IMG/VR virus record: IMGVR_UViG_3300042293_000483
Span: 1 to 33,237 of that record
Length of the DNA: 33,237 nucleotides
Source: a virus
Direction: 5' to 3' (one strand)
The notes under the pieces were generated by a model, which was not told the DNA's origin, did not search any database, and was given only the letters and a program-made list of their open reading frames with translations. Below, in pieces: positions 4,824 through 30,273 of the stretch. The position numbers and the translations under genes were made by a program. Position 1 is the first letter of the stretch. Every line of letters begins with the position of its first letter.

Positions 4824-5119
4824 CAGCGGCCTCGTGGTATGTAGGTGTAGATCAGTGCTCCGATTACAGCGGCCACCACTGCAATCGATACATACTGGAA
4901 CGTCGAGTAAATAGCAGGAACATCATCAGAGACGTAGGGGATCCGTGCCGAAATCTCAGCGGCCAGCGCCTCGATGCGCTCGAGCTCCGCGTTCGCTTTC
5001 GCCAGGTAAGAGCGTGCCGACGTCGCCGCCTCTCGCGAAGTGTTGGCACTTTGCGAGATCGCCGCCGTGCTCGATGCACAGCCGGTGAGCAGCAGGACGA
5101 TGACGGCGAGGTACAGCAT
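4823..5119 (-). CDS. Unimolecular-spanin-like lipoprotein, 98 aa (unit I)
   Basis: The N-terminus (MLYLAVIVLLLTGC) ends in a lipobox with Cys14. A helical, alanine- and glutamate-rich middle (about 25-62) follows, and then a C-terminal membrane helix at about 76-93 with the basic end PRGR. This topology, outer-membrane lipid anchor plus inner-membrane helix, is that of u-spanins such as T1 gp11, which disrupt the outer membrane at lysis. It is short for spanning a periplasm. The N-terminal region has no lysine or arginine before the hydrophobic stretch, which is unusual. The start shares TGATG with the spike stop. Nearly identical in unit II. Confidence 0.65.
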   Translation of the reverse strand: MLYLAVIVLLLTGCASSTAAISQSANTSREAATSARSYLAKANAELERIEALAAEISARIPYVSDDVPAIYSTFQYVSIAVVAAVIGALIYTYIPRGR

Positions 5120-6615
5120 CAGAGAGCCAGCAATGCGGAGACAATTCGGCTAGTGACGATTTGGTATCCATCGTCCGCCATCGTTCCAGAACCCGCAGGA
5201 GGAATCGCGATAGTGGCTAGGTGCGATTGCCCGCCGTCGGTAGTGCCGTCGCCGTAGAGTTGGTACTTCAACAGCGTTGGCCCATCAATCATTGCACCGA
5301 TATCGACAACGCATACGTTGTCACCGGCAGACTGGCCCCACGCATTTGCTGCGGTGGACACTGCCGCACGACCCGTGGCCCACGAACCCAAAGTTTTTGG
5401 GTGTGTCACGGTAAAGACAAAAGCAATCGTGTCCGCGCTTCCACCAGACGCCACCCATCGTGCCTTCATTCTTGTAACAATGGTTTGCGCGTCAGCAGTC
5501 CAAGTGCCGCTAATGTTTACGCCAGCATTTAAGAAGACAATGGTGTTCCCGGAGCCGCCGCAAGCAACTTGGCGCTCTCGAATTTCCTTAAGAAATGCGT
5601 CGAGCAATTTGTCTGCACCAGTGATCTTGTTTGCAATCTGTGTAGTGGTCAACCCGCCGTAATAAACAAGGTTTGAAACTGAGTATCCACGGATGGCTGT
5701 ATTGATGACGGAATGCCACAATGCCGCAAATGGGCCAAGGGCTTGGTGGGCTGTAGTTGCGGAGTTGTATCCATCCCAACTAACGCGCAAGCCTCGCTGG
5801 CTTGAATCATTAAATGTTGGCGCGTAGGTATAGGATTGAGTTGCGTAACCGTAACCACCGCTAGTAGGTGTATCACTAGTCTCACGCTTTGCAACTCCGC
5901 CACCTGGCAACCAATACCACACCGGACGAAAACTCCCAGCGGTAGGGAATGTTCCATACACCAAACGATAAGTAAGCGTTGCCCCGGCTCCGTTTCCGTC
6001 CGTACCGAATACCGATTCAAATCCAAAACTTGTGTAACTTGCTACCGTTTGATTACTGACGTGGACATTGTTGTCATAAGTGGTAGTAAATCGCGTTCCA
6101 GTCTCTACAACAACTGGATTGACTCCAAATCCGTTTGCAGACAAAAGAGAATTAGTTGTTGAGTTAGTTAAATCTGATATTGACATTCCAAGATAATTAC
6201 GCAGTCCGACAATTTCTGTATCTGTATTTTGTGCCATCATCTTGCAAGGGCTTGGGCTATTCCCTACTGCTACTGTTGTGACAGCACTTGTACCAGCATT
6301 CGTTCCTATTCCTGCTTGGTTTACTTGCGTTCCCTGCGCCGTGCTTGTCGCGCCGGCGTTGAACATGCCGCCACCAAATAGGGACGTTCCGTATGGCTTG
6401 ATCCGCAGACCAAACTGCAACGCCCGTTGCCATCCCATGTGGTAACCGTTTGCACCGGCGTACATCGCGTTGCTATCGCCGATGGTGATTACGTCAAGTG
6501 AATCAACACCATTTGCGGCATCGAGCAGCATCTGTGCGGCCCTTGTAGATCCGTAGATGTTTGGCCCAGTTGCAACTGCGGATAGGACGGATTTGCGGAG
6601 CATGGAGGTAAACAT
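5119..6615 (-). CDS. SGNH-hydrolase-type tail spike or tip esterase, 498 aa (unit I)
   Basis: Residues 43-48 (ITIGDS) form the GDS block of SGNH/GDSL hydrolases, with Ser48 as the probable nucleophile. A block III-like NAGVN lies near residue 365, and a C-terminal D-x4-H (Asp460, His465 in DGGQSH) fits the Asp/His pair. The middle (about 80-330) is a beta-rich insertion typical of carbohydrate-facing domains. Position after the tail-tip genes suggests a virion protein that removes acyl groups from a surface glycan. The first residues (MFTSMLRKS) match the 51-aa ORF before the unit II spike (MLTSMFRKA), so the short head is shared and the enzyme body is swapped. Substrate unknown. Confidence 0.75.
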   Translation of the reverse strand: MFTSMLRKSVLSAVATGPNIYGSTRAAQMLLDAANGVDSLDVITIGDSNAMYAGANGYHMGWQRALQFGLRIKPYGTSLFGGGMFNAGATSTAQGTQVNQAGIGTNAGTSAVTTVAVGNSPSPCKMMAQNTDTEIVGLRNYLGMSISDLTNSTTNSLLSANGFGVNPVVVETGTRFTTTYDNNVHVSNQTVASYTSFGFESVFGTDGNGAGATLTYRLVYGTFPTAGSFRPVWYWLPGGGVAKRETSDTPTSGGYGYATQSYTYAPTFNDSSQRGLRVSWDGYNSATTAHQALGPFAALWHSVINTAIRGYSVSNLVYYGGLTTTQIANKITGADKLLDAFLKEIRERQVACGGSGNTIVFLNAGVNISGTWTADAQTIVTRMKARWVASGGSADTIAFVFTVTHPKTLGSWATGRAAVSTAANAWGQSAGDNVCVVDIGAMIDGPTLLKYQLYGDGTTDGGQSHLATIAIPPAGSGTMADDGYQIVTSRIVSALLAL

Positions 6616-8398: not shown

Positions 8399-9135
8399 TA
8401 CGAGCCACCTTTCAAAATCCGATTCTGTTCGCGCATGAGTCGCAAGTTTTCTGCGTCAATGATTGCGTTCTTCACTTGTACGTCGCGGTTTTTGTTGTCG
8501 CTCATACCGGCCGTCATCTCTTGGCCCATCGTGCCAAGTTTGCCGACATCGACTCTGCCGCCTTGATCGAGAATGTCCGAATTAAGAAACGGCATATACC
8601 CTTGCAACTTTTTGAAGCGCGATTTGTTTGAAACAGGATCTATAAGGTTTTCAGGCGACTTCATCATCTCTGCTGCGAATGCCATCGAATCGTTGTACAA
8701 AGACATTGCATCTTGCTTTAGGCTTTCAAAGAACGCGATTTGTCCAGCTCCGTCTGCAACGTCTGTCTCCGCACGTCGTTGAATTCCACCACGTTTGGCG
8801 CGTTCCGCACCGGCTACGTCGATACCAAACGTGTTTGCCATGAATTCCTCGCGTCGCAATTCAAGCATCTTGGTTTGCATGATGCCTCGTTGCGCTTCAG
8901 GAGAGAAGCGCGTAGACATTGCTGCCAAATCAGTCATGCGCCGATCCATGATCCGGAATGCACCCATCAGCATTTGAAAGCCCATCTGCGCCATATTGAA
9001 CGACGCACCGACAGCAATAGCGCTGGTCTTGCTGTTCAACTTAGCCAACTCGCGATTGGTTGCCGCCACGCCCTTGATGACGCCGGACGGATCAACTTCA
9101 GCGCGAATGACAGCCTTCATGCTCTTATCTGCCAT
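8398..9135 (-). CDS. Short tape-measure-like protein, 245 aa (unit I)
   Basis: It sits directly after the chaperone ORFs, the usual tape-measure slot. The N-terminus (MADKSMKAVIRAEVDPSG, then RELAKLN) resembles the start of many tape-measure proteins, and the rest is helical with a hydrophobic stretch at about 41-60. Tape measures are usually 500-2000 residues, so this is very small. At about 0.15 nm per residue of helix it would set a tail of roughly 35-40 nm. The unit II homolog shares the first 35 residues or so and then diverges. Alternative: a tail-tip chaperone or minor protein. Confidence 0.5.
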   Translation of the reverse strand: MADKSMKAVIRAEVDPSGVIKGVAATNRELAKLNSKTSAIAVGASFNMAQMGFQMLMGAFRIMDRRMTDLAAMSTRFSPEAQRGIMQTKMLELRREEFMANTFGIDVAGAERAKRGGIQRRAETDVADGAGQIAFFESLKQDAMSLYNDSMAFAAEMMKSPENLIDPVSNKSRFKKLQGYMPFLNSDILDQGGRVDVGKLGTMGQEMTAGMSDNKNRDVQVKNAIIDAENLRLMREQNRILKGGS

Positions 9136-9271
9136 AGGTTTCCTTCTTCAACCAAGGGATGCAGCGTTGCGGCTTTTGCCCGACAGCGTTGCACACCAAG
9201 GCCGTAAGCAGCCACTCGCACCGCTCAAGGGTGGTGAGTTCTGATTTGGCGATGAGTCCGCTCATGTTCAT
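9125..9271 (-). CDS. Second tail-assembly-chaperone ORF, 48 aa (unit I)
   Basis: This ORF begins MNMSGLIAKSELTTLERCEWL and its ATG overlaps the stop of the first chaperone ORF as ATGA. Its last 11 nt overlap the tape-measure candidate. A homolog of 51 residues sits at the same place in unit II with the pattern ERCE(W/Y)LLT...PWL(K/R)K...GR. It corresponds by position to the downstream half of the lambda G/GT pair. I see no clear slippery heptamer, so coupling by reinitiation is as likely as a frameshift. Confidence 0.6.
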   Translation of the reverse strand: MNMSGLIAKSELTTLERCEWLLTALVCNAVGQKPQRCIPWLKKETYGR

Positions 9272-9567
9272 GCGTTGCTCGGCGTCTGCGATTCTCCAGA
9301 GCCGCCGTTCGGCGGCGTCGTAAAACGTTCTCGGTTGATCTCCTCAAGCAGCGCCGAGCAGATGTCCGCCCGGACGTTTGCCATCTCGCCGTGGTTGTGC
9401 ACGAACGGCGTCCCATCGATGCAGGACAGACAAGCCGCCCACCAGTACGGATCAGCGGCTGCGCGGGTGTAGTCCGCCATCGTGGGTTCACGCACCATGA
9501 TGACGCCGACACCAGGCACATCGACGCGCCGCGGCTTCGGTGAGATTGAAGAGAGATCGAACGGCAT
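9268..9567 (-). CDS. Tail assembly chaperone, 99 aa (unit I)
   Basis: Small protein between the major tail protein and the tape measure, which fits the chaperone slot. It aligns with unit II at the N-terminal strand (VxVxGxGxxxVRxxTxAD), then the segment with a tryptophan pair, DGTPF or DGSPLF, the helix ALLEEINR/ALIDEVNRP, and RFTTP. It starts at 9567 with TAATG overlap. No sequence family asserted; function from position and two-copy conservation. Confidence 0.65.
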   Translation of the reverse strand: MPFDLSSISPKPRRVDVPGVGVIMVREPTMADYTRAAADPYWWAACLSCIDGTPFVHNHGEMANVRADICSALLEEINRERFTTPPNGGSGESQTPSNA

Positions 9568-9956
9568 TAAGCCTCCTCAACGCTGATTGACCACATGCCA
9601 GGGCCGGAGCCGTCATCTGTGCGTGTTGCGCTAGTGATGTGCCCAGTTAGTACGTAGGCCACTGAACCCTTGTCCGTGTAACTAAATGCCACGCTCCTGT
9701 TTTGAGCGTCTGCTATCGAAGCTGGATTCATATGCGCTCGGATCGCTACGTCTAAAGTGCTGTCTGCCATGCAGTCAAATGTGACGCTGCGTTGGATGCG
9801 TCCGGGCATTCGCTTCTCTGCGAAGTCGGCAAGGCTTGTCGAGTCCAGGGATGAGCGGGAATGGCTAAACGTGACATTCTTTGCAAAGTATGTAGCGGCC
9901 GAAGATGATTGAAAGTTGAGCGTAAGCGCTCCGCCGTAGCCTGGTGTGATTGCCAT
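9567..9956 (-). CDS. Major tail (tube) protein, 129 aa (unit I)
   Basis: Beta-rich protein upstream of the chaperones, after the tail completion gene. It shares GYGG near the N-terminus, (K/R)RMPGR or (K/R)RYAPGR, a run around RAHxxPxS, and DDG(S/T)GxGxWxxSxE near the C-terminus with unit II. This is the expected size and place for a tail tube protein of a siphophage. Overlap with both neighbours is TAATG. Confidence 0.7.
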   Translation of the reverse strand: MAITPGYGGALTLNFQSSSAATYFAKNVTFSHSRSSLDSTSLADFAEKRMPGRIQRSVTFDCMADSTLDVAIRAHMNPASIADAQNRSVAFSYTDKGSVAYVLTGHITSATRTDDGSGPGMWSISVEEA

Positions 9957-10357
9957 TAGGTTGTCTCCTGTACAAGTAGTTCGAGTTGAATAGTCCCGAT
10001 GCGCTCCGCATCGGTCTTGCCGTCATCTATTGATTCGGTGCTCATGGTCACGCTGAACGCGGACAGGACTAACACACAGTCGTATCCCACGTTCGTAATT
10101 GGTGCTGCAAACGAAGTCCGCACATCGTCTACCAGATTGAGGCAATCATCGACCGTATCCGCTATGGCTTGAACCTGTACTGTGATTGTCCAATGGCACA
10201 AGGTTGGGATGCCGGAAGTAACTACATCAACTGCAGCGCTGGTGATTTCGTAGACGTAACACGGTGTTGCAGCGCCCGCTTGGCGAACACCACAGAACGC
10301 ATCTGCTTTCAGTTGTAACTCAACTCGAATAGCCTTTTGGATGTTATTTAGGGACAC
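9956..10357 (-). CDS. Tail completion protein, 133 aa (unit I)
   Basis: Shape and position fit the tail-completion/terminator group (lambda gpU or HK97 gp10-neighbour type). GTG at 10357 (VSLNNIQKAIRVEL) is preferred because the unit II homolog also starts GTG-TC. Conserved with unit II: GxRxAGxxTPCxVYE near residue 20-35, then a hydrophobic helix and DDGxxDAER before the C-terminus. It overlaps the end of the gp10-like gene by 14 nt. Confidence 0.65.
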   Translation of the reverse strand: MSLNNIQKAIRVELQLKADAFCGVRQAGAATPCYVYEITSAAVDVVTSGIPTLCHWTITVQVQAIADTVDDCLNLVDDVRTSFAAPITNVGYDCVLVLSAFSVTMSTESIDDGKTDAERIGTIQLELLVQETT

Positions 10358-10904
10358 TCGTATTCCCCATTCCGAGGATCTTGCGAGCCTCAATCAGAAT
10401 CTCGGAACTGATCGCTTGCATGATCTTGGCTACGTTTGCCTTGCCCCACATCTCGCCGTAGTGGTTGCCGGGGATCATGCGTCCGGAGTGCTTGTGCACA
10501 AATCCGTTCTCTGTCCAGGGGAACACAAACTGCCGGCCGCGTGCGCGTGCGCCGCCCTTCTTGCCAAGTTGCACCCCGAGCTCGGCGCGGATTGGTGCGC
10601 CGGCAGGGCCCATTCGCTTGGGCGAACTGACGCGAGTAGCGGAGGCAATCGCCTTGCGGTGGACCTTCTTCCCGCTGCGGATGTAAGGCGCATTCAGCAG
10701 GACGGCTCTCAGGTTTGCCACGAAGGGCTTGAAGCCCTTGCGGATTGCCTTCTTCCGGACGGCTTCGTTGAGCGCTGGCGAAAGTCGCGCTAGTGTCTGC
10801 GTCACTTCCTTGGTATCGATGGTGATGCGGACAGCACCAGACGTGCCTACAGACCCGCCGCTACCCCTACCCGCTGGGCCCATGTATCGATCGTGGAATC
10901 TCAC
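10344..10904 (-). CDS. HK97 gp10-like neck/tail protein, 186 aa (unit I)
   Basis: Basic protein with a tail-component HK97_gp10 look: an N-terminal variable part, helix ALARLSPALNE...RKKAIRK-type, then a region rich in Gly-Lys-Lys (QLGKKGGARARGRQ) and a C-terminal helix ISSEILIEARKIL. It probably sits at the head-tail joint. Starts GTG at 10904, overlapping the head closure stop as GTGA. Unit II is 36 residues longer because of an Arg/Gly-rich insertion before the final helix. Confidence 0.65.
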   Translation of the reverse strand: MRFHDRYMGPAGRGSGGSVGTSGAVRITIDTKEVTQTLARLSPALNEAVRKKAIRKGFKPFVANLRAVLLNAPYIRSGKKVHRKAIASATRVSSPKRMGPAGAPIRAELGVQLGKKGGARARGRQFVFPWTENGFVHKHSGRMIPGNHYGEMWGKANVAKIMQAISSEILIEARKILGMGNTSVPK

Positions 10905-11224
10905 GGCGTCACCTCCGCAGCAGTCACGCGCAAGCGTTTCTTACGCCCACTGTCCGGGTCCACCAGGCTCAACACGTTGTACGCGGTTCCGTTGAGGACC
11001 AGCCGGCTACGCGTGTTGATGATCGGACTCCAGGCAGTCTCGATATCCAAGTTCGTCCGTATCGCCGAGCCGCGATCATCCATGACCTCGCTCTGTGAAC
11101 TTGTGACCATGCCGCGAACCGTGCCGACATTTAGCCAGGCTAATTGTGCTTGGCCAAATGCGTCAACCGTCTGTGTAGACGTTTGCACCGTCAAGACTTC
11201 GCGCCAGAATCCACATCCGGCCAT
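10901..11224 (-). CDS. Head closure (head-tail adaptor) protein, 107 aa (unit I)
   Basis: Fits the SPP1 gp16 / Phage_H_T_join head-tail adaptor group: QTSTQTVDAFGQAQLAW is the typical 'VD-x-x-G' start, followed by strands and the end NGTAYNVLSLVDPDSGRKKRL. It plugs the portal channel after DNA packaging. Only a few substitutions separate it from unit II. Next to the connector gene, 3 nt apart. Confidence 0.75.
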   Translation of the reverse strand: MAGCGFWREVLTVQTSTQTVDAFGQAQLAWLNVGTVRGMVTSSQSEVMDDRGSAIRTNLDIETAWSPIINTRSRLVLNGTAYNVLSLVDPDSGRKKRLRVTAAEVTP

Positions 11225-11227
11225 AAA

Positions 11228-11509
11228 TCATCCGATCGATTGGTCTGAGTGCATCCGCCGTATGGTTTGGATGAACGGGTGCGGCTCGGGGGTCACGGCG
11301 TCATCGCCGCGCCACGGTTCAAGGCCACCGACTTGCAGCCGGATAGCCATCCACTCTTCCTCCGACATCACCGCCACGCCACGGTTGGTCGCAGCCTCCC
11401 ACATGGAGACAGCCGCGCGCAAGGAAGCGGCGATAGCCGGATCATCTTCCTGATGACCCTTTTTTAGCCATTGCCTGACGTCATCTAAATTGGTGGGAGT
11501 GCCAGGCAT
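11228..11509 (-). CDS. Head-tail connector protein, 93 aa (unit I)
   Basis: Small helical protein in the slot of HK97 gp6-like connectors, directly after the capsid gene. The N-terminal LDDVRQWLKKGHQEDDPAI and a second helix MWEAATN suit that fold. The C-terminus (DDAVTPEPHPFIQTIRRMH) is almost identical in unit II. ATG at 11509 is chosen because GGAG lies about seven bases upstream; GTG at 11521 is an alternative. Confidence 0.7.
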   Translation of the reverse strand: MPGTPTNLDDVRQWLKKGHQEDDPAIAASLRAAVSMWEAATNRGVAVMSEEEWMAIRLQVGGLEPWRGDDAVTPEPHPFIQTIRRMHSDQSIG

Positions 11510-11523
11510 GATGTGCTCCACGG

Positions 11524-11556
11524 CGGCGGGGGAAGGGCCGAAGCCCCGCCCCGCCG
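11524..11556 (-). promoter_or_regulatory. UUCG-capped RNA hairpin behind the capsid gene (unit I)
   Basis: In the transcript an outer 8-bp stem (CGGCGGGG with CCCCGCCG) leads through an internal loop to GGGC-UUCG-GCCC. It lies in the 62-nt gap between the capsid stop and the connector start, the only real gap in the head region. There is no U run after it, so it is a weak candidate terminator; RNA protection or translational damping of the downstream genes is equally possible. Unit II has a different sequence with the same architecture. Confidence 0.65.
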
Positions 11557-11571
11557 CTGCTGAGAGGATGA

Positions 11572-13323
11572 TTAGCCGTTAGTGACTTGCATCTGCACGA
11601 TGGCCTTCGCGCGAGTGAAGTTGCCGTTCATGAACATGGTGCCCTGGAACTTCACCTGGGCAGCTGCTGCCAGGCTCAGATCATCCCTCATGATCGTGGC
11701 GCCTGCCCACTCCCGGGCACTGTAGCCCTCGTTGTGATTGCCTAGGCTGATGATCGTGTTCTTGCCAGTGGTTGCGGTGCTGACGTGCGTCGGCAGGAAT
11801 TCGGTGACATAGACCGGAAGGCCCATGAGCGTGAATCCTGCACCAGCTTGGCCTACCGCATCGGCTGATGGGATAAACACGGGCACGCCATTGATCGTCA
11901 AGTTAGCGATCTTTGCGTACACATCCTGACTCATGAGCCAGGACGCGGTGCCCCAGTAACTCGCAGGGAGGCTGGTGTAACGCATCGCGGTGAGATTCGG
12001 CACTGTGCACGCTGCTGTTAAAGCAAGTGCGCGAGTTGTGCCGGTGCTTGTTGCAGTCGCGATCGTGCAACCAGTCTGCACTGTGAAGAGGCCAGTAGGC
12101 TGATTGAGCGTGGAACCGTTCGTACCGGTTGAACCACCACCAGCGATGAGGCCCCATTCCGCATTGCGAACGAACTGCCGATTCAAGTTGTCGACCACTT
12201 CGGCTTCCAGATCAAAGTTGCTCTGCAAGAGCAGCTGCTTCGACACCGTGGTGAACGGCAAGCACGCTGCCGGAGCCAGTGGAACTTCCGCGAAGACCGG
12301 ATTGATTTCGGTGCTTGCTTGTGTGCCGACGTCGGAAACGGTCCACGCATTTGCAATCGCGTCAGTGCTGAACAGCGTGTTGTAGCGCAGCGTTTGGTAG
12401 CCCTGCACGCCGGACTTGTAGTCCACCAGCTGGCGAGCAACAGTTGACACCTGGGCGTAGTGCGCCATAGCGTCGGTATACAGCTTTGGGATGAGGACCG
12501 AGTTGGTCGCAGGGTTCGCGGTGGTCATCGCTGCACGCTGTTCCGGCATACGGCCGCCGCGCAGGTAGCTCAGCCACTGGTCGCGGTACTCGGGCGATGC
12601 GCGCCACTCTTCGCCAGCGTCGCGGCGATCCATCGTGCGCTGGATCGGGGTCGCAGCCTCGCGGATGCCATCAGCGGCAGCCATCGCGGCGTTGCGGGCC
12701 TCGGTGATCTCCTCGATCTGTGCGACGATCTCGGCGCGGGTTTCTGCTTCAGTGCCTTCGACGTTCTGCGCGCGCAGTTCTGCGAGCTTTGCATTCATGG
12801 TGCGGATGTTCATTGGCTTGATTACCTTTGTGATGACTGGCGTTTCTTGTGAGCGGACTTGAGCAGTGGTGGCGTTGTATGCACCCTGCTCGACGATTGA
12901 AATCTCTCTGAGATTGACTGAATTGAGTGTGCGCTTCTCACCGGCCCACGAATCCCCACCAGGTGGAACGGAAAACCCGAAGGACATTTCGGAAACCACT
13001 CCGCGGCTGACCAAATCCAACACCAGCGAATCGCGCTCTGAACTGCCGAGCGTGGCCGTGTATTTGAGACCTTGCGCGTCCGACTCCAGGGTGAGTGTTC
13101 CGCTCTTGGTGTTGGCGAGAATCTGCTTTGAATCGTGCATAAACCACAGCGACGCACCGGCTGCGATCGATGCGTCAAACGCACCAGGCGCGATGCGCTC
13201 GGTGAATGTGCCCTTCGCACCCATGAGCGGCTTGCTCCATGAGTTGTAAAGAGCGGCGTAGCCGGTGATGGTCTTGCCTTCAACAGCACCGATGGATGCC
13301 TGGCGTGTTTCTAAATCACTCAT
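11572..13323 (-). CDS. Fused prohead protease and major capsid protein, 583 aa (unit I)
   Basis: Residues 1-160 are an HK97-type prohead protease: His63 in WFMHDS, Ser114 in VSEMSFGF and Glu140 in LREISIVEQ fit the catalytic set. Residues about 172-240 form a charged helical delta/scaffold-like stretch (NAKLAELRAQNVEG and IVAQIEEITEARNAA). The rest, from about 255, is an HK97-fold capsid protein with typical segments such as VSKQLLLQS, LMSQDVYAKI and GLPVYVTE. In HK97 protease and capsid are separate genes; here they are one frame, so self-release is expected. The start overlaps the portal end by 8 nt. The protease half is near-identical to unit II while the shell half has diverged. Confidence 0.9.
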   Translation of the reverse strand: MSDLETRQASIGAVEGKTITGYAALYNSWSKPLMGAKGTFTERIAPGAFDASIAAGASLWFMHDSKQILANTKSGTLTLESDAQGLKYTATLGSSERDSLVLDLVSRGVVSEMSFGFSVPPGGDSWAGEKRTLNSVNLREISIVEQGAYNATTAQVRSQETPVITKVIKPMNIRTMNAKLAELRAQNVEGTEAETRAEIVAQIEEITEARNAAMAAADGIREAATPIQRTMDRRDAGEEWRASPEYRDQWLSYLRGGRMPEQRAAMTTANPATNSVLIPKLYTDAMAHYAQVSTVARQLVDYKSGVQGYQTLRYNTLFSTDAIANAWTVSDVGTQASTEINPVFAEVPLAPAACLPFTTVSKQLLLQSNFDLEAEVVDNLNRQFVRNAEWGLIAGGGSTGTNGSTLNQPTGLFTVQTGCTIATATSTGTTRALALTAACTVPNLTAMRYTSLPASYWGTASWLMSQDVYAKIANLTINGVPVFIPSADAVGQAGAGFTLMGLPVYVTEFLPTHVSTATTGKNTIISLGNHNEGYSAREWAGATIMRDDLSLAAAAQVKFQGTMFMNGNFTRAKAIVQMQVTNG

Positions 13324-14491
13324 ATGGTGGGTCCCCTTCGTCTGCGTCTGCGAGATTCGCAGCGGGTGTGATGCCGGAGATCACCGGCGCCGGATCGTCA
13401 AGGCCTGCGATACGTGGCAAACCGAGCCGCACGCGTGCGTCGTTCGGTGCCAGGACGCCGACTTGCACCAGCGCCGCGTACGCCTTGCCGGCTGTGCGGA
13501 AGTCGCCTTGCGTGATAGGAACAAGATCAGTTTTGATGCGCTCACCTGGTGGGAGCAGCTTGCGCGATAGTTCCGCATCGATGCCGGCGCAGAACGGAGC
13601 CAAGCAATGCGTCACGTAGGCCTGTGCGATCTCAGGTTGTGAGCGCCCCTCGCCCTGATAGAGCAGTTGCGGAGGCACGCCGAATGCACGCGCCACCTCT
13701 TCAACGCCCATCTTCTTGGCGTCCATCAAACGAGCGGCAGCGTCCGCAGCCATCTGCGATGCCTTCATGCCTTCGCCGAAGAACGCCGGGAAGCCAAGTT
13801 TGTCTGCGCCGCTGTGTTGCTCTGCCCACTTAGTACGCATCGAATCGCGCGCCGTAGCAGTCAGGGGCCCGGGGTGCTCGATCGCGAGCTTTCCGACAAA
13901 GCCGGATTTGGCCAGTTCCTCAATCGCTTGGTCCAGAATGGCTTGAGTCCCAAGCACGCGAGAGCACTGATCAATCGGAGACACCCCGAGCCATGGGCTG
14001 CGCGGGTCCGTCGAGGCCCGCACATGGATCAGACTTGAGTCATCCACCACCGAATTGTTGACGATGTAACGGGCTTCTGACCCCTTAATCTCAACGCTGA
14101 CGGCAGACGGGTCAACCGGATCCAAAGCCACCGGATCGCCGGTGCGGAGATCGCGCCGGATGAGCAGGTAGCCATTGCCGAAGTAGAGAGCCGACGTCGC
14201 CAGCCACTTACGCATTTCGTATCCACTCAGGAAGGAAGCGGTGTTCCCGTAGAGCAGATCGACCGCGGGCGAGTCCTCAACTACGGACCCGTCGCGGCGC
14301 GTTACAGTGAGATCCAACCGCGCTGAATCGGTGCTGATCAGATTCACGGCACGCACGATGGCGGGGACGCCGAGTAGATCAGCGGATACCGTCGTAAACG
14401 TCAGCGGTGTGTAGCTGATGATCGTTTGCGCGATCGGGCGGCGGAAGAATTTACCCAACCATGATCCCATTCCCGTACTACACCATGACAT
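13316..14491 (-). CDS. HK97-family portal protein, 391 aa (unit I)
   Basis: Ring-forming DNA entry and exit channel at one capsid vertex. Family features: PAIVRAVNLIS near residue 45, ALYFGNGYLLIRRD near 105, SPWLGVSPIDQC near 170, GVPPQLLY near 275, and the C-terminal PNDARVRLGLP. Length is normal for the family. It is followed with overlap by the protease-capsid gene. A second ATG seven codons in (MGSW) could be the true start; neither has a strong ribosome site. Many positions are shared with unit II, with clustered changes at residues 7-45 and around 80. Confidence 0.9.
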   Translation of the reverse strand: MSWCSTGMGSWLGKFFRRPIAQTIISYTPLTFTTVSADLLGVPAIVRAVNLISTDSARLDLTVTRRDGSVVEDSPAVDLLYGNTASFLSGYEMRKWLATSALYFGNGYLLIRRDLRTGDPVALDPVDPSAVSVEIKGSEARYIVNNSVVDDSSLIHVRASTDPRSPWLGVSPIDQCSRVLGTQAILDQAIEELAKSGFVGKLAIEHPGPLTATARDSMRTKWAEQHSGADKLGFPAFFGEGMKASQMAADAAARLMDAKKMGVEEVARAFGVPPQLLYQGEGRSQPEIAQAYVTHCLAPFCAGIDAELSRKLLPPGERIKTDLVPITQGDFRTAGKAYAALVQVGVLAPNDARVRLGLPRIAGLDDPAPVISGITPAANLADADEGDPPYE

Positions 14492-14590
14492 TTCACGAAT
14501 GCAATAGCGCCTACATACACCGCGTCAACGGTGTGTAGACACTATTTCAGATTGTGTATGCGGCGTACGTACGCGCAGTAATCAGAAGCC
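14487..14590. promoter_or_regulatory. 104-nt terminase-portal junction, identical in both units
   Basis: Identical to 31437-31540 while the coding sequence on both sides differs at many bases. It contains a hairpin at 14511-14538 (ACACCG/CGGTGT with loop CGTCAA, extended by CTAC/GTAG across a 2-nt bulge) and a perfect 12-bp palindrome GCGTACGTACGC at 14563-14574. On the minus strand TTGACG is followed 16 nt later by TATTGC, a passable promoter pair for the head operon. Could be a promoter, an operator, or a packaging-related site. Confidence 0.5.
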
Positions 14591-16234
14591 CGGCTGAGTC
14601 TCGTACATCGATCCTCCCATGATCTGCAGATCGTTCAGCACACGCGCCGCCATGACCTGCGCGGTGAGCGCATCGATGTTGCTCGTGCTCTTCTGCTTCA
14701 CCGGCATGGCCAGTCCAGTGAGTCCGACATAGAGCCGAGCCGACGCCAGGCACGCTCGCAGCACTGGGTCCGGCTTGCATCGGATGCGTTCGGCGCGGAT
14801 CCAATCGCTCCAAACGGCCCAACCACCACCCATCCAGACGATTGTCTGCGGTGCTTTGTGCCATTTCCACCCGTGTTTTCGCTCCATTTGGGCAGCCCAC
14901 GCGCTCGCTTTACCGACCGGATCGGCGACAAAAGCGCGCACGTCGTACGTCCGACAGATGTCTACAAGCCTTGCTTCGACCAGATCGAGGTCGATTGTCG
15001 GCCCACCAGCCAGCGAAAGAGCGTGTTCATCGACCCATTTCTGCAGCGGTTGGCGCGTTCGCTTCTCATCGAAAGCGATATCAGCGCCGGCCCACCAGTG
15101 ATATCCGCGCGTGTGCACCTTCGTCCCATCCCACACGGCGAGGCACAGCGAAGTGAGATCGCACTGTGAACCGAACGCGAAGCCGCCCTGGCTAAAGTCC
15201 ACCGCCACCACACCGGCTGCGCCCTGCAACATATCCCAGTCTTCCTCCACCGAAACACGGTCGAGTAGCTCGAGCGGCAGCGCGCCGGCGAGGTCATCCG
15301 TGAACGTAGCGAGTTCCTGCAGCCACGTTTCCTCGCGTGCTTTCGGGTCTGCGGTCGCCAGTGCGTTAGCGATCTTGTCACGGATGACGCGGATGCCAGC
15401 GCCAAGTACGCCGGCGCTCGGGTTCGCGTGCTGCACCGCTAGGTCAGAGTCCGGCACATCGTCCGTATCCATGCCCCACAGCATCGCCCACCACCCTTCC
15501 GGCAGCGGCGTCCCCTGGTCAATCGCGAGTTCGCACGCTTGCCAGTAGGGCCAGAGTTCCCGCGACTTCTGATCGCGATCGGGCGTGGTGATGAACAGCA
15601 TCTGCCCCGTCGGTGACTTGGTGACCGATGACATTCCGCGCAAAATTGCCGCGTCCATGCGACTAGCTTCGTCCGCGATCAGAAGCCGCGGGACCAGACC
15701 GTCCATACTTTGATCAGTCGATGGGAACGCGTTGAATACAGCCTTCTTGTGTTGGATCAAACCGGAGGTAGTCGAAGCACCACCACCCACCGAGCGCCAC
15801 CGGTCCTCGCCGTTGTGCATCTTGGCGATACGCCCGTGGATGATGTTCGCTTTCATTTGGTTGGTCGCCACCGCGCACAGTTCCATATCCTCGCCGGTGG
15901 ACAGCAGCCACTCGAGCAGCGCCACCACCAGCCCCGTCTTGCCGGCTCCACGGGCCACCGACCACAGCGCGTAGCGCGTAGCCGGAGTGCCATCGTCCGC
16001 ACGCCGGCGCGCCAACAGGACCGCACAGACGTGGACCTGCCAGGGCAGGAGCTTCATGCCCATGACCTGAGCGCGGCTCACGAACGCGTCCAGTTGCGTG
16101 CCGTCCCACGCGATGCCGTGTTCACCTGGCGCGTATCGCTCTGCCAGGTAACGGGCACACGCCGCCTTGATGCGCTTCGGCGCCGGCACGGTACCCAAGA
16201 TCACGCCCCTGGCGTACCCGTCCGATCGCTCCAT
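14582..16234 (-). CDS. terL: Large terminase subunit, 550 aa (unit I)
   Basis: Packaging ATPase and nuclease. The N-terminus (YARGVILGTVPAPKRIKAAC) is the usual start of HK97-like large terminases. Walker A is ARGAGKT at 94-100, Walker B LLIADEA at 184-190, and the coupling motif ITTP at 215-218. The RNase H-like nuclease domain shows Asp346 (VVAVDFSQG), Asp438 (FVADPVG) and Asp521 (SNIDALTA). ATG at 16234 fits the family start; the same frame stays open for 134 more codons across the HNH gene, but that stretch has no terminase likeness. No clear ribosome site precedes 16234, so a nearby alternative start is possible. No small terminase gene is seen next to it. Confidence 0.92.
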   Translation of the reverse strand: MERSDGYARGVILGTVPAPKRIKAACARYLAERYAPGEHGIAWDGTQLDAFVSRAQVMGMKLLPWQVHVCAVLLARRRADDGTPATRYALWSVARGAGKTGLVVALLEWLLSTGEDMELCAVATNQMKANIIHGRIAKMHNGEDRWRSVGGGASTTSGLIQHKKAVFNAFPSTDQSMDGLVPRLLIADEASRMDAAILRGMSSVTKSPTGQMLFITTPDRDQKSRELWPYWQACELAIDQGTPLPEGWWAMLWGMDTDDVPDSDLAVQHANPSAGVLGAGIRVIRDKIANALATADPKAREETWLQELATFTDDLAGALPLELLDRVSVEEDWDMLQGAAGVVAVDFSQGGFAFGSQCDLTSLCLAVWDGTKVHTRGYHWWAGADIAFDEKRTRQPLQKWVDEHALSLAGGPTIDLDLVEARLVDICRTYDVRAFVADPVGKASAWAAQMERKHGWKWHKAPQTIVWMGGGWAVWSDWIRAERIRCKPDPVLRACLASARLYVGLTGLAMPVKQKSTSNIDALTAQVMAARVLNDLQIMGGSMYETQPGF

Positions 16235-16316
16235 GGCGGTGTCGACGCGTTGAATACTTGTAGCCGTGGGTTCTTCCTGCGGACCGACGGTCCCACAAGG
16301 CGGTGCCCAAGGGACC

Positions 16317-16345
16317 GGGGTACCCCCCCTACCCAAGGGGGGGGG
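16317..16345. other. G/C homopolymer tract with palindrome before terminase
   Basis: GGGGTACCCC overlaps C7 (16323-16329), and a G9 run follows at 16337-16345, so the segment can fold back on itself. It lies in the 119-nt gap between HNH stop and terminase start. Homopolymers of this length are prone to sequencing length errors, so the local reading frames here deserve caution. Confidence 0.6.
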
Positions 16346-16353
16346 ATCAATTA

Positions 16354-16629
16354 TTATTGACGCGGATTTCTTAGGGTTGTTTTTTCGAGTTCTTCGTGGC
16401 ACGCTCGGCAACACACCATCAGGTTCCTTGGGTCCATCTTGAGGCCCGGATTGACCTCCAGTGGCACGATGTGATGCACTTCGTCGCTCGGTGCTATCCC
16501 GCACCGTTGGCACAGTGGGTTGTTCTGCCTGAGCTTCAGGCTCAACCTCGTCCAACTGCCGCCATAGCCCAATCGCCTGCCACGTACTTCTGAGACTAGC
16601 GCCGCGTACGGCGATTTCCACGTCTTCAT
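16354..16629 (-). CDS. HNH endonuclease, 91 aa (unit I)
   Basis: Small HNH nuclease with Cys40-x2-Cys43, His52-His53 in EVHHIVPL, Asn69 in DPRNLMV and Cys74-x2-Cys77-His78. HNH proteins next to terminase stimulate terminase cutting in HK97-type phages (gp74). AAGGAG lies seven bases before the ATG at 16629, which fixes the start; the ATG at 16636 abuts the same site and is disfavoured. The usual small terminase gene between HNH and large terminase is missing here. Confidence 0.88.
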   Translation of the reverse strand: MKTWKSPYAALVSEVRGRRLGYGGSWTRLSLKLRQNNPLCQRCGIAPSDEVHHIVPLEVNPGLKMDPRNLMVCCRACHEELEKTTLRNPRQ

Positions 16630-16636
16630 CTTTCAT

Positions 16637-16850
16637 CTCCTTGCCTTTGTTGGTGACGGGTGACGCTTGGTGACGCTTGTTTGCATATGAGTAGCCACGG
16701 GCGCGCGCGTGCGCGTGCGTGCTATGTCAGAAAGAAGCGTCATAAGTGTCACCAATCTAATAAGTCCACGTTCTGTAGTTGGAATATTGCCAAATGTCGA
16801 TTTCATAATGTGTCACCCAATGCGTCACCATGTGTCACTAGTGTCACCCC
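16637..16850. other. Repeat-rich region between HNH and helicase, candidate replication origin
   Basis: GGTGACGCTT occurs twice in tandem (16659-16668 and 16669-16678), after another GGTGAC at 16652. The inverse GTCACC/GTCACT occurs at 16748, 16812, 16824, 16834 and 16843, about 9-12 nt apart in the last four, where they overlap the helicase 3' end. Between the two groups is a 22-nt alternating purine-pyrimidine run (16701-16722), able to adopt Z-DNA, and an AT-richer stretch around 16740-16810. Iteron-like direct and inverted repeats next to an SF3 helicase suggest an origin. Inference, not shown. Confidence 0.45.
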
Positions 16851-18107
16851 TGAGAAGCCCCGCGAATGCTTCGTACGCTCTGCAACGATCCCACGGGCCT
16901 TTAGGTCTGGCCCAAGCCGCCTCATGCTCTTTGGATGTATGCCGTTCTGAGCACACCAGTGGCTCCATGACGCCATGATCTGTGCGCTGCTTACCCATCC
17001 ACTCTCCACCCGCATGGTGCAATCTTGCAGCCAAGCGCCAACCGTGTCCTGATCATCGAGGTAGCCCGCCGTTGCCTTCAGGATCGATTCCGGTGGACGC
17101 AAGCCGCCAAGAGTCGCCCATTCCTCAAAGCCCTCCATAGCCCAACGTAGGACGCCTCCCGCCTCCTCCCTGAGTTTCGCTCCGAGGTCGCCATCCGGCT
17201 TCTCTGGCTTGTTGGTGAATGGCACCATGCACAACCGCCTACGCATGGCATCGTCAACCACCGCAATCTGCGGCGCATGGTTCCCCACCACCAGCAGCTT
17301 GAAGCACGGCGTGAACTCAAACCAATCCTGCCTCATGTGCCGAGCCACCACCACATCGCCGCCAGTCAGTTGCTTCAGTTTCGCGTCATCCCACTTGCGC
17401 CCTTCCTGCGTTTCATTGGCAATGGCCAAGCGCGCACCCTTCAACATGGCAATCTCTGCCGGATGCCGGTCGCCCTTACTCTCCATCAGCGCGTCCATTG
17501 GCAGCGTCTTCGCGTACTCGCCCCAGGCATACCGGATGGTGTCGACGAACACGCTCTTACCGTTTCCGCCTGGTCCGTGGATGAACAGAATGCAGTGTTC
17601 CTTGGTGCTCCCGCTCAGCGCGTAGCCGGCCCAGCGCTTCAAGAACGCAACCACCTCCGCATCGCCACGTGCAGCCTCGAGCAGGAACGCTTCCCACCTG
17701 GTGGTCGATCCACCTGGCTTAACGCCTACGCGCTTGGTAATGCTCAAATCGAGCAGCCGATTAATGGCGCTACCCTCGATCAGGTCATACACATCGTCAG
17801 GCGCGCCGAAGCCCCACAGATGCTGATCCCAGTCCGCACTACCAACCACCAAGCCATCGAACGATTCAGCCACGGACGCAAAGTAGCGCGCCCAGCTGCC
17901 AGTGTCGTTTGGATTCGCTTTGGCTGCGCCCTTGATGATCTCGCCCTTCACCATGTTCAACCGGTCGCGCTCCCACACTCCCGACTGGGCCCGCGTGTAC
18001 CAACTGTTGCTATCCACGCACCACCGATACTCCAGCTTGATCGCTTCCTTGCACCACTCCCGTGCAGCGGCATTCGCCTTTACCTTTGACTCTTCTTGCA
18101 TTTCCAT
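16803..18107 (-). CDS. P4/D5-type superfamily 3 DNA helicase (unit II)
   Basis: Same protein as at 89-1393 with two amino-acid differences (Q17E and S41Q in the 434-residue reading). Walker A GPGGNGKS, the SF3 motif C LLVVGNHAP and the RRR cluster are unchanged. Many codons differ silently, for example in the arginine and leucine codons of the RRRL segment. GGAGG six bases before the ATG at 18107 supports this start over the ATG at 18113. The GTCAC repeats are read in frame at the C-terminus, encoding the V-T and D-T pairs of the last residues. Confidence 0.9.
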   Translation of the reverse strand: MEMQEESKVKANAAAREWCKEAIKLEYRWCVDSNSWYTRAQSGVWERDRLNMVKGEIIKGAAKANPNDTGSWARYFASVAESFDGLVVGSADWDQHLWGFGAPDDVYDLIEGSAINRLLDLSITKRVGVKPGGSTTRWEAFLLEAARGDAEVVAFLKRWAGYALSGSTKEHCILFIHGPGGNGKSVFVDTIRYAWGEYAKTLPMDALMESKGDRHPAEIAMLKGARLAIANETQEGRKWDDAKLKQLTGGDVVVARHMRQDWFEFTPCFKLLVVGNHAPQIAVVDDAMRRRLCMVPFTNKPEKPDGDLGAKLREEAGGVLRWAMEGFEEWATLGGLRPPESILKATAGYLDDQDTVGAWLQDCTMRVESGWVSSAQIMASWSHWCAQNGIHPKSMRRLGPDLKARGIVAERTKHSRGFSGVTLVTHGDALGDTL

Positions 18108-21191: not shown

Positions 21192-23255
21192 TTAGCCGAG
21201 CGTGATAAGAGTGAAAATGTACGAATCACCAAGGCGGTTTTTTACATTAATCAACAATGTTAATGGATCGATCCAGACGTTTGCTCTTATAGATGTATTA
21301 GGATTCACTGTGTTCGCAAACGCGACATGACTGCCAGCAGATACTGAGGTAATCAAACTATCGCCGTGCAGGAAGAGGAAATTAGTAATTCCTCCGCATG
21401 AGCTTGTCAACATACGAAGGCTTGCTCCGTTTGCCATGAAAGTGCTGCGAGGAAAAGCGTAAGTCGCTTGGTCTGCAATAATTGCGCTTTGCACAGTTAC
21501 GCCGCCACCGTTTTGAGAATCCGGATCAACTAGTGTGCCAAACCGAGGTAGGAATCCGTTTCCGTTGTTATTGAACTGGCTTGCGGCTAAACCAATATTT
21601 TGGTTTTGATACGCGTTGAAATCAGCACGCAGAATAGAAACAAAGTCAGTGTTGTTTACGAGATGAGGGACAGCAGTTGCGTTTGCATTTACGTTCCCAG
21701 ACACTTCAAATTTGTTGATATCAAATCGCCCACTTGCATTGGAAGCAAGAAACGCGCTAACAAGTTTAGTCATCATGTTGTTTTTGATGACCGACGAGCA
21801 CACTCCGCTGCTTCCACCATCTCGCAAAGTTGGCGAAGCAAATATTTTTAACGGGCCCGAGATTTTGTTGCCAGTCACCGTAACAAATACAGGCAATGAT
21901 GTTTCCGATACCTCTGTCCATCCCACAAAACTGCCAAGCACCCCTGTCGTGTCGGGAACATTGTTTAAAACAATGTTGTCTGTGACTGTGTACATACGCG
22001 CTCTTGTTGTTGCCACTCCTGAGAAAAAACCAATAGGAGCAGAACCAAATGTGTTAAAGGTATTTTCAAATGGGTTTGTTCCGCCTGGCCCAACGTCATA
22101 ATGGAAGACGTTGTTGGACACAATGCCACACTCAAGCTGGCAATTGATTTGACCAGATCCATCCTTAATAGGCTGAACCGCATATCGAACCGTGTTGCCT
22201 GTAATTACGGTTTCATCGTTCTGAACCTTAATTGCACGGCCTTGGCAATTTATAAAGTGGTTGTTTGATACTGTTGCAGTTGTTGGTGAGTAAGTAGACC
22301 CTGCGACAGTGCTGCCAAAGATCTTTAGTCCATCGGCGTTTACGTTTGAAGCAACATCTGCAGTTTGGTTGTTATTAATGTCGTTGAAATAGCATCCAGA
22401 TACATTGGTGTTTTGTGCGAAAAACGTCCCACCATCGGTGTTGACACCTACACCCATGCCAGTAGTTTCAAAAGTATCATTTGCGGTAAGTGCGCTTCTC
22501 TTGAAATTTGTAAATTGGCTATTGGTGACGTTTATGAATTTATAGCCTCCAAGCAATTCAAGACCAGCAGATGATTTCCAAAATCCTGCGCCTACTGGAA
22601 CGCCGTTCTGTATTCCGAATCCATTTTTGAATACGCAATCATCAACCTCAACAACCGCCTCGCCTTGCAGTTTGTCATCGTGTCGAAAGCAAACTTGCGC
22701 TTTTAGGTTGGCATCAAATGTGAGTCCTCTGAGACTGAGATCCTTGCCAACCGAGCCGCGGATGTAAAACATAAACGCGGCCTGCGTTGTGGTTGTCGAT
22801 TTAATGGTGGCCGATTCGGCTTCCATTCTGAGCCCATTAGCTGGTGTGGCCACATCAATTTGGACTCCAGATCCTGAACTAGTAAAGGAAGACATGGCAT
22901 ATACGCCGCTCGGAAAGAAAAGCGTCCGGTCAAGAGTAATGCACGAATCAACTGCTGCTTGGATAGCTGCGCGGTCATCAGTTGTTCCGTCACCAACCGC
23001 CCCAAAGTCTTTCACGCTCACCATGTCGCGAAGCTTGGAGTCCAGCGTGCGTGAAGTTGCACCGGTGCCGGTCGCAAGGAAGTTTGGACTGCCTCCGCTG
23101 TAACTCGTTGAAGTCCAGACGGTGCCGGTGCCGACCTTAAACTTGCCGGTATCGGTTTCGGCACACATCTCTCCCGTCAACAGTGTTGGGTTGTTGGACG
23201 TCCAGTTTGCTGCCGTGTCTCGCCGAATGCAGATGTTTGCGCTGATAGTTGCCAT
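21192..23255 (-). CDS. Pectate-lyase-type beta-helix tail spike, 687 aa (unit II)
   Basis: Residues about 9-50 (IRRDTAANWTSNNPTLLTGE, then TDTGKFKVGTG) resemble the N-terminal domain of major tropism determinant proteins. Residues 83-99 (DFGAVGDGTTDDRAAIQ) are the signature of the Pectate_lyase_3 superfamily used by phage depolymerase spikes. A long run of N/G/V-rich short repeats (about 110-560) fits a right-handed beta-helix, and the last 110 residues may be a trimer or binding cap. Predicted to bind or cut host polysaccharide. Active-site residues cannot be picked. It is AT-richer than its neighbours, a hint of horizontal acquisition. Confidence 0.85.
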   Translation of the reverse strand: MATISANICIRRDTAANWTSNNPTLLTGEMCAETDTGKFKVGTGTVWTSTSYSGGSPNFLATGTGATSRTLDSKLRDMVSVKDFGAVGDGTTDDRAAIQAAVDSCITLDRTLFFPSGVYAMSSFTSSGSGVQIDVATPANGLRMEAESATIKSTTTTQAAFMFYIRGSVGKDLSLRGLTFDANLKAQVCFRHDDKLQGEAVVEVDDCVFKNGFGIQNGVPVGAGFWKSSAGLELLGGYKFINVTNSQFTNFKRSALTANDTFETTGMGVGVNTDGGTFFAQNTNVSGCYFNDINNNQTADVASNVNADGLKIFGSTVAGSTYSPTTATVSNNHFINCQGRAIKVQNDETVITGNTVRYAVQPIKDGSGQINCQLECGIVSNNVFHYDVGPGGTNPFENTFNTFGSAPIGFFSGVATTRARMYTVTDNIVLNNVPDTTGVLGSFVGWTEVSETSLPVFVTVTGNKISGPLKIFASPTLRDGGSSGVCSSVIKNNMMTKLVSAFLASNASGRFDINKFEVSGNVNANATAVPHLVNNTDFVSILRADFNAYQNQNIGLAASQFNNNGNGFLPRFGTLVDPDSQNGGGVTVQSAIIADQATYAFPRSTFMANGASLRMLTSSCGGITNFLFLHGDSLITSVSAGSHVAFANTVNPNTSIRANVWIDPLTLLINVKNRLGDSYIFTLITLG

Positions 23256-28182: not shown

Positions 28183-28470
28183 TCATCCGATCGATTGTGA
28201 TCCGTGCATCCGCCGAATAGTCTGGATGAACGGGTGAGGCTCCGGGGTTACGGCGTCATCGCCACGGAATGATTCGATATGACCGACTTGGAGCCGAATG
28301 GCAAGCCATTCTTCGTCCGTGATGTCCTTCAATTCCTTGGCGGTCGCGGCCATCCAGGCCGACAACGAGGCCGTGAGCGCAGCCGAGATGGCCGGATCAT
28401 CTTCGTTGTGCGTGCGTTTCAGCCACGCCCTCACGTCCGCTAGACCAGGTTGGGTAGTGGGTATCGACAT
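28183..28470 (-). CDS. Head-tail connector protein, 95 aa (unit II)
   Basis: Homolog of 11228-11509. GAGG lies four to five bases before the ATG at 28470. N-terminal half has diverged (LADVRAWLKRTHNEDDPAI kept), C-terminal DDAVTPEPHPFIQTIRRMHG almost unchanged. HK97 gp6-like connector by position and size. Confidence 0.7.
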   Translation of the reverse strand: MSIPTTQPGLADVRAWLKRTHNEDDPAISAALTASLSAWMAATAKELKDITDEEWLAIRLQVGHIESFRGDDAVTPEPHPFIQTIRRMHGSQSIG

Positions 28471-28482
28471 GGCACCTCGCTA

Positions 28483-28514
28483 TTGCGGGGTGAGGTCGAA
28501 ACCCCACCCCGCAA
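28483..28514 (-). promoter_or_regulatory. UUCG-capped RNA hairpin behind the capsid gene (unit II)
   Basis: In the transcript a 10-bp stem TTGCGGGGTG/CACCCCGCAA plus GGGT/ACCT (one G-U) is capped by UUCG. Same place and cap as in unit I, yet most stem bases differ, so pairing is what has been kept. No U run follows. Candidate terminator, RNA stabiliser or attenuator between capsid and connector. Confidence 0.7.
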
Positions 28515-28530
28515 CTGCTTGAGAGGATGA

Positions 28531-30273
28531 TTAGGAAGCAGTGACTTGCAGCTGAACGATCGACTTCGCGCGGGTGAACGCGGAGTTCGCGAACATGGTG
28601 CCTTGGAACTTGACCTGACCACTACCGGCCAGAGTTAGGGCATCCCTGTCGATATTCATGCCGGTCCACTCCCGGGCGCTGAATGCATCTCGCACGTTGC
28701 CGCAGATTAGCATGGTGTTCACGCCGGAGGCTGCAACGAGCTTATAAGCCGGCGCAAACTCGGTCACGTACACCGGCAGACCCATGAGCGTAAACGATGC
28801 GCCAGCCACACCAACCGCATCGGCGGATGGAATGAACACTGGGACGCTATTGATCGTCAGGCCACAGATTGCCGCGTAAACGTCTTGCGACATTACCCAC
28901 GCGCTCGAGTTCCAGTACGAAGCTGGCAAGAGGCTATATCGCATCTCGCGCAGATTGGCAACAGTTACGCCGGCAGTAATTGCCGTCGCGCGCGTTGCAC
29001 CACCAGCAGCAACAGCCTTGACGGTTGCGGCTGAAGTGGTGGTGAAGAGTCCGACCGGCTGATGCGTGGTCACACCGTTTGTGCCAACAGTTCCAAGTCC
29101 GCCGACGTAACCAAACTCAAGGTTGCGGGCGAATTGGCGCATCAGGTTGTCGACGATTTCAGCCTCGACATCGAAGTTAGCCTGGGCAAGCAGTTGCTTG
29201 GTCACACTGGTGAACGGCAAGCACGCCGCCGGGGTCAATGGAACTTCAGCGAATGCCGGATTGATTTCCGTGCTGGCCTGTGTTCCGGCATCACTGACAG
29301 TCCACGCTGAGGTGTAAGCGGCAGTTTCGAGCGTGTTGTAGCGGAGGGTCTGGTAGCCCTGCACGCCAGTGCGAAGCTCAGCAAGGTTGCGAACAACAGT
29401 CGCAGCGTCGATGTACTTCATGATCATGTCTTCGTACAGCTTTGGAATCATCACAGCACTGCTGTCCTGACTCTTCAATGCTGCACGCACTTCAGGCTGA
29501 CGGCCGCCGCGCATGTAGCCCATCCACTGGTCGCGGTAATCGTCGGTGCTGCGGTACTCATCGCGCTGGTTGCGGCGATCGATGGTGCGCTGGATCGGGG
29601 TCGCAGCCTCGCGGATGCCATCAGCGGCAGCCATCGCGGCGTCGCGCGCCTCGAGGATCTCCTCGATCTGTGCGACGATCTCGGCGCGGTTTTCTACTTC
29701 AGTGCCTTCGACGTTCTGTGCGCGCAGTTCTGCGAGCTTTGCATTCATGGTGCGGATGTTCATTGACTTGATTACCTTTGTGATGACTGGCGTTTCTTGT
29801 GAGCGAACTTGAGCAGTGGTAGCGTTGTATGCACCCTGCTCGACGATTGAAATTTCTCTGAGATTGACTGAATTGAGCGTGCGCTTATCGCCGGACCACG
29901 AATCCCCACCAGCAGGAACGTGGAATCCGAAAGACATTTCAGACACAACACCGCGCTTCACCAGGTCGAGCACCCCGGCGTCACGCTGCGAATCGCCGAG
30001 CGTGGCGGTGTATTTCAGACCTTGATCGTCTGATTCGAGCGTGAGTGTGCCGCTCTTGGTGTTGGCAAGAATCTGCTTTGAATCGTGCATGAACCACAAC
30101 GATGCACCGGCTGCGATCGATACGTCAAACGCACCAGGCGCGATGCGCTCGGTGAATGTGCCCTTCGCACCCATGAGCGGCTTGCTCCATGAGTTGTAAA
30201 GAGCCGCGTAACCGGTGATGGTCTTGCCTTCAACAGCACCGATAGATGCCTGACGTGTTTCTAAATCACTCAT
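28531..30273 (-). CDS. Fused prohead protease and major capsid protein, 580 aa (unit II)
   Basis: Protease part: His63 (WFMHDS), Ser114 (VSEMSFGF), Glu140 (LREISIVEQ), all at the same positions as in unit I. The delta-like helix and the nucleotide stretch up to about residue 240 are nearly identical to unit I; from there on the capsid shell has clear divergence, including the block around residues 250-300 and 400-440. Fusion with protease is unchanged. Overlaps portal end by 8 nt. Confidence 0.9.
   Translation of the reverse strand: MSDLETRQASIGAVEGKTITGYAALYNSWSKPLMGAKGTFTERIAPGAFDVSIAAGASLWFMHDSKQILANTKSGTLTLESDDQGLKYTATLGDSQRDAGVLDLVKRGVVSEMSFGFHVPAGGDSWSGDKRTLNSVNLREISIVEQGAYNATTAQVRSQETPVITKVIKSMNIRTMNAKLAELRAQNVEGTEVENRAEIVAQIEEILEARDAAMAAADGIREAATPIQRTIDRRNQRDEYRSTDDYRDQWMGYMRGGRQPEVRAALKSQDSSAVMIPKLYEDMIMKYIDAATVVRNLAELRTGVQGYQTLRYNTLETAAYTSAWTVSDAGTQASTEINPAFAEVPLTPAACLPFTSVTKQLLAQANFDVEAEIVDNLMRQFARNLEFGYVGGLGTVGTNGVTTHQPVGLFTTTSAATVKAVAAGGATRATAITAGVTVANLREMRYSLLPASYWNSSAWVMSQDVYAAICGLTINSVPVFIPSADAVGVAGASFTLMGLPVYVTEFAPAYKLVAASGVNTMLICGNVRDAFSAREWTGMNIDRDALTLAGSGQVKFQGTMFANSAFTRAKSIVQLQVTAS

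Follow-up and report, generated by a model that had tools for sequence, protein, structure and literature searches.

The window, by which we mean the whole stretch of DNA analysed, is the 33,237-base IMG/VR virus record IMGVR_UViG_3300042293_000483. It consists of two related units of ~16.6 kb each, arranged head to tail and carrying genes mainly on the minus strand; the first 2 kb of the two units are 94% identical. Relatives of the window reach ~18.3 kb in the longest of the matches listed, and some span the primase-terminase border. The two-unit record could be a chimera made in assembly, or it could represent a hetero-concatemer. Two other long records were considered as multi-unit relatives and rejected, the capsid gene being absent from both. 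In unit 2, a tail-spike-like gene (21192-23255) encodes the N-terminal domain of a major tropism determinant; for the gene at the counterpart position in unit 1 (5119-6615), no match to tail spikes was obtained.

In each unit a protease-capsid fusion gene, which matches the Pfam families S78 and Phage_capsid, is followed by a small gene at the adaptor position. Family search gave no match for either of the small genes (93 and 95 aa); the gene after the 93-aa gene of unit 1 matches head closure Hc1. The features of this region are as follows.

11572-13323, minus strand: protease-capsid fusion gene of unit 1, 583 aa, with the stop codon TAA at 11574-11572
11561-11571, minus strand: C/U-rich tract UCAUCCUCUCA of unit 1, straight after the capsid stop, which can pair with the next Shine-Dalgarno
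11523-11557, minus strand: hairpin of unit 1, UUCG loop at 11542-11539
11516-11519, minus strand: Shine-Dalgarno GGAG of the next gene, unit 1
11228-11509, minus strand: small gene at the adaptor position of unit 1, 93 aa, placed before the Hc1 gene
28531-30273, minus strand: protease-capsid fusion gene of unit 2, 580 aa
28520-28530, minus strand: C/U-rich tract UCAUCCUCUCA of unit 2
28479-28518, minus strand: hairpin of unit 2, UUCG loop at 28500-28497
28475-28478, minus strand: Shine-Dalgarno GAGG of the next gene, unit 2
28183-28470, minus strand: small gene at the adaptor position of unit 2, 95 aa

The gap between the capsid gene and the small gene measures 62 nt (unit 1) or 60 nt (unit 2), and in both units it folds into a hairpin capped by a UUCG loop, as the initial annotation had recognized. 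The minimum free energy of the gap is -37.1 kcal/mol in unit 1 (z -4.35) and -34.5 kcal/mol in unit 2 (z -5.40), and 0 of 200 dinucleotide shuffles were as stable in either case. The further claim that stem bases differ between the units with pairing kept was borne out: the loop is closed by a C-G pair in unit 1 and by a U-A pair in unit 2, and other stem bases differ too and pair in both. The stem of unit 1 contains a small internal loop. The foot of the stem lies within a few bases of the Shine-Dalgarno of the next gene in both units, with no U run between them, which had also been noted correctly. No strand had been given; the structure belongs to the minus-strand mRNA. The adjoining Shine-Dalgarno, the C/U-rich tract ahead of the stem and the frequent hairpins at this place in cultured HK97-type phages had gone unmentioned. 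A search of the window against Rfam returned 0 matches at the gathering threshold.

A second hairpin lies in the terminase-portal gap (14547-14498 and 31497-31448, minus strand). Its 50 nt are identical between the units, in surrounding DNA that is ~84.5% identical, and exact copies of its first 18 bases were found in 27 of 235 loci, several of which are the same contigs. In both units a third stable hairpin precedes the DUF5906 primase-like gene, just 5′ of its start (1452-1403 and 18177-18128, minus strand).

To follow the post-capsid hairpin through relatives of the window, we collected 126 gaps from two capsid-guided IMG/VR scans, locus L110, one MAG contig and the two window copies. The second scan took the best 80 of 328 relatives, and a further list the best 80 of 105, of which only L110 was new. 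Duplicate contigs of first-scan loci (L052, L206 and L208-L216) were left out; L027 and L044, which are too short, and L201, whose capsid match is cut by the contig end, were not counted. A GC-rich hairpin was present between capsid and adaptor in 124 of the 124 gaps that were long enough (best-of-list relatives and the window), which form a subset of the known relatives because only the best 80 of 328 and 80 of 105 were taken. These gaps comprise 48 distinct sequences over 75 nt with 11-22 pairs per stem, and capsid identity to the window protein among the relatives goes down to about 35-39%. The stem starts 9-20 nt past the capsid stop in the 48 distinct sequences, the gap is 57-72 nt long, and the next gene starts 4-15 nt past the stem in 45 of the 47 distinct sequences with an assigned start (L023 had none assigned). 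The two outliers, L190 and L191, have gaps of 96 nt from misassigned starts, where our script chose an internal ATG; a TTG start would reduce the gap to ~66 nt. A U run behind the stem was found in none of the distinct gaps. In all of 28 related loci (6.7-18 kb), the hairpin outranked every other 46-nt fold of the coding strand in stability, and in 26 of the 28 it did so over both strands. Within the window, the hairpin of unit 1 ranks first, and that of unit 2 is exceeded by unit 1 alone.

The loop is more variable. Among 30 distinct hairpins, UUCG occurs in 14, CUCG in two and GAAA in one, the rest having longer loops; the C(UUCG)G form of unit 1 is found in 7 of the 30, and unit 2 carries U(UUCG)A. 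These counts indicate that the stem, and not the UUCG loop, is the conserved feature. The emphasis of the initial annotation on UUCG is thus right for the loop in both units and otherwise too strong, since relatives with CUCG, GAAA or longer loops have equally strong stems.

A DNA search of 50,697 phage records revealed no close relative of the window, and matches in protein searches of phage records were all below 60% identity. A DNA pattern scan for the hairpin, which used a narrow pattern, returned mostly one allele. A first scan of genome contigs gave 0 confirmed relatives, and a scan of 84,980 prokaryote genomes gave one, L223, a 4,879-base contig in an Actinomycetota MAG bin; this is a weak hint to the host of the sister clade, too weak to name a host.

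The covariation check on homologues, which had been proposed with the initial annotation, was run on 14 distinct stems with four-base loops, using ten gapless loop-proximal pairs (140 cells). Of the cells, 135 (96.4%) were paired, as compared with 95.7 (sd 5.0, maximum 114) in 2000 permutations of whole 3′ arms. Compensatory, double-sided changes were seen at 9 of the 10 pairs, in 30 cells over the 14 stems. The covariation score was 0.729, against 0.176 (sd 0.040) for shuffles, none of 500 of which equalled it, and slid structures scored 0.06-0.16. The 140 cells contain seven G-U pairs and no A-C appositions, which favours RNA of the mRNA strand over DNA. The post-capsid hairpin is therefore a real, covarying and positionally fixed RNA structure, and the covariation, the fixed position and the rank of the hairpin as the strongest fold give good support to the earlier proposal that the RNA structure is functional.

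The tract between the capsid stop and the stem is rich in C and U (C 0.43, U 0.22, A 0.22, G 0.13). Over 17 families, the 12 nt past the capsid stop gave 3.65 expected pairs with the next Shine-Dalgarno; shuffles of the same composition gave 2.91 (p 0.0055), and 12-mers of random sequence gave 2.01 (p 5e-5). Random sequence also pairs somewhat with the Shine-Dalgarno in this test, single families are mostly non-significant, and 3 of the 17 fall below their own shuffles. The Shine-Dalgarno of the connector pairs at 4.45 of 6 bases, against 3.59 for other Shine-Dalgarnos of the same genomes (n=12 versus 173, p 0.008). The p-values of this comparison and of the tract pairing test are too small, because the families are related. 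Sequence comparison thus lends moderate support to a tendency of the C/U-rich tract to pair with the next Shine-Dalgarno.

On the two sides of the gap (11507-11574 and 28468-28533 in the window, and in related loci), the alleles of capsid and connector occur in changed combinations, and an 11-nt flank is identical. Among 45 close relatives, the hairpin allele matches the connector allele in 42 (p 2e-9) and shows no association with the capsid allele (p 1.0). In L023, L039 and L043, hairpin type B is joined to the other connector type. That the hairpin goes with the connector is consistent with a role in expressing the connector, but may be no more than a reflection of where recombination is possible.

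The genes for the capsid, which is present in several hundred copies per particle, and for the connector, of which there are about a dozen, are neighbours in tailed phages. A fixed, covarying element at their border is a compact possible way for phages of ~16-18 kb to set this ratio. We give about an even chance to the reading that the element is an intercistronic RNA hairpin separating capsid output from connector output, most likely post-transcriptionally; action after transcription is the most likely because the stem is followed by no U run and has a purine-rich Shine-Dalgarno right behind it. Tuning between capsid and connector and protection of the mRNA, both raised in the initial annotation, are the two leading candidate mechanisms. 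We infer an exonuclease block, an expression effect in its direction and size, and an opening controlled by the ribosome. The hairpin would halt 3′-to-5′ exonucleases, giving a stable capsid mRNA, and, set against the Shine-Dalgarno, would hold connector initiation at a modest level, assisted by the preceding C/U-rich tract through its pairing with the Shine-Dalgarno. A ribosome terminating at the capsid stop would cover the tract; given the ribosome footprint, a stem that starts 9-20 nt past the stop would lie at or slightly beyond the edge of that ribosome. More tentatively, the whole gap might be a three-part RNA device of anti-Shine-Dalgarno tract, super-stable hairpin and Shine-Dalgarno, in which the terminating ribosome, by covering the tract, makes the connector start accessible for a short time. 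If so, the capsid:connector ratio would follow ribosome traffic without a terminator setting it, and the gap would hold a widespread, still unnamed RNA element of small uncultured phages.

A different role is suggested by HK97, whose record (NC_002167) annotates a putative terminator (5192-5213) at the same place, between genes 5 (capsid) and 6 (adaptor). The hairpin could be a partial transcription terminator, either intrinsic though U-less or assisted by Rho/NusG, past which only a fraction of polymerases would reach the connector genes. Its stem is stable and GC-rich, as is that of a terminator, and a survey, in the part of it that was available, argues that U trails are often absent at termination sites (PMC8355165). 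In 20 cultured HK97-type phages, hand-picked and not sampled (cut-off of 7 or more pairs and -13 kcal/mol or lower; for phage 16-3 the gap was taken to begin where the longer capsid product, made by frameshifting, ends), the capsid-adaptor gap contains a hairpin in 14 and none or a weak one in 6. A U-rich tail (5 or more T among the following 8 bases) follows the stem in 5 of the 14, which points to termination in those phages. In the relatives of the window, however, every distinct gap lacks the U run, and the site is absent from the results of a scan for terminators over 9000-17000. The purine-rich Shine-Dalgarno behind the stem should, moreover, give a stable RNA-DNA hybrid. We therefore consider termination at this hairpin unlikely.

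Alternatively, the stem might act purely as a 3′-exonuclease barrier that stabilizes capsid mRNA, its short distance to the next gene reflecting genome economy. The great stability of the stem, its often stable tetraloops and its location at or outside the edge of a terminating ribosome all suit such a barrier, for which the galE hairpin is a precedent (PMC11925234, in the part available). It would leave the C/U-rich tract, the extra Shine-Dalgarno pairing and the linkage to the connector allele unexplained, however, and is in our view doubtful as a full account. The reshuffling of capsid and connector alleles over the gap, with its identical flank, would suit a DNA-level element, for instance a cruciform or a joint at which gene cassettes recombine. 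This is very improbable: the presence of G-U pairs and absence of A-C appositions indicate RNA, of one strand, and the stem sequences are widely divergent, which a homologous joint does not favour. We reject, as barely credible, a recoding signal that fuses capsid and connector by stop readthrough, frameshift or T4 gene 60-like bypassing, because, although the hairpin lies past the stop codon and the T4 bypass gap likewise has a tetraloop stem (PMC3014915, in the part available), the connector is in frame 0, 1 or 2 relative to the stop in 25, 15 and 7 distinct sequences, tandem stops (UGAUAG) occur in some sequences, a separate Shine-Dalgarno and start serve the next gene, and the last capsid codon varies.

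We also compared the element with known systems. A literature search, to which most subscription journals were outside the scope, found no paper on a hairpin behind an HK97-type capsid gene. Tuerk et al. reportedly dealt with intergenic CUUCGG hairpins of phages in 1988. Such hairpins are described as long known, with stems of 2-8 pairs, in the available part of PMC8948821. They share with our hairpin the C(UUCG)G loop, found in unit 1, and the intergenic site in phage operons; compared with what that text describes, the element here has a longer stem, a fixed capsid-connector site and a loop that is only one of several in use. The galE hairpin of the E. coli gal operon, according to the available part of PMC11925234, blocks exonucleases and creates polarity, and is not the terminator of the operon. 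It is, like ours, a non-terminator operon hairpin, with a function shown for galE and inferred here, but it lies, on the same partial account, inside the next gene, ~120-130 nt past the stop.

Closer counterparts are found behind other capsid genes, and the window hairpin falls into a descriptive class of GC-rich hairpins between capsid stop and adaptor start in HK97-type phages. The post-capsid hairpins of the cultured phages F1055 and Pd_22F likewise have a U-less stem with purine-rich sequence right behind it, but their stems are shorter, and the record regions examined carry no annotation of them. The HK97 hairpin occupies the same gap, with a G-rich 5′ arm, a C-rich 3′ arm and a GAAA tetraloop as in relative L187; it is weaker (11 pairs, -19.9 kcal/mol) and ends in UUUU, whereas the hairpin here has 13-17 pairs, no U run and an adjoining Shine-Dalgarno. 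The hairpin described here is thus a U-less, Shine-Dalgarno-abutting form of the already known post-capsid hairpins. These have at best been annotated as putative terminators; the comparison suggests that some are U-tailed and others U-less, and the two forms may differ in how they work.
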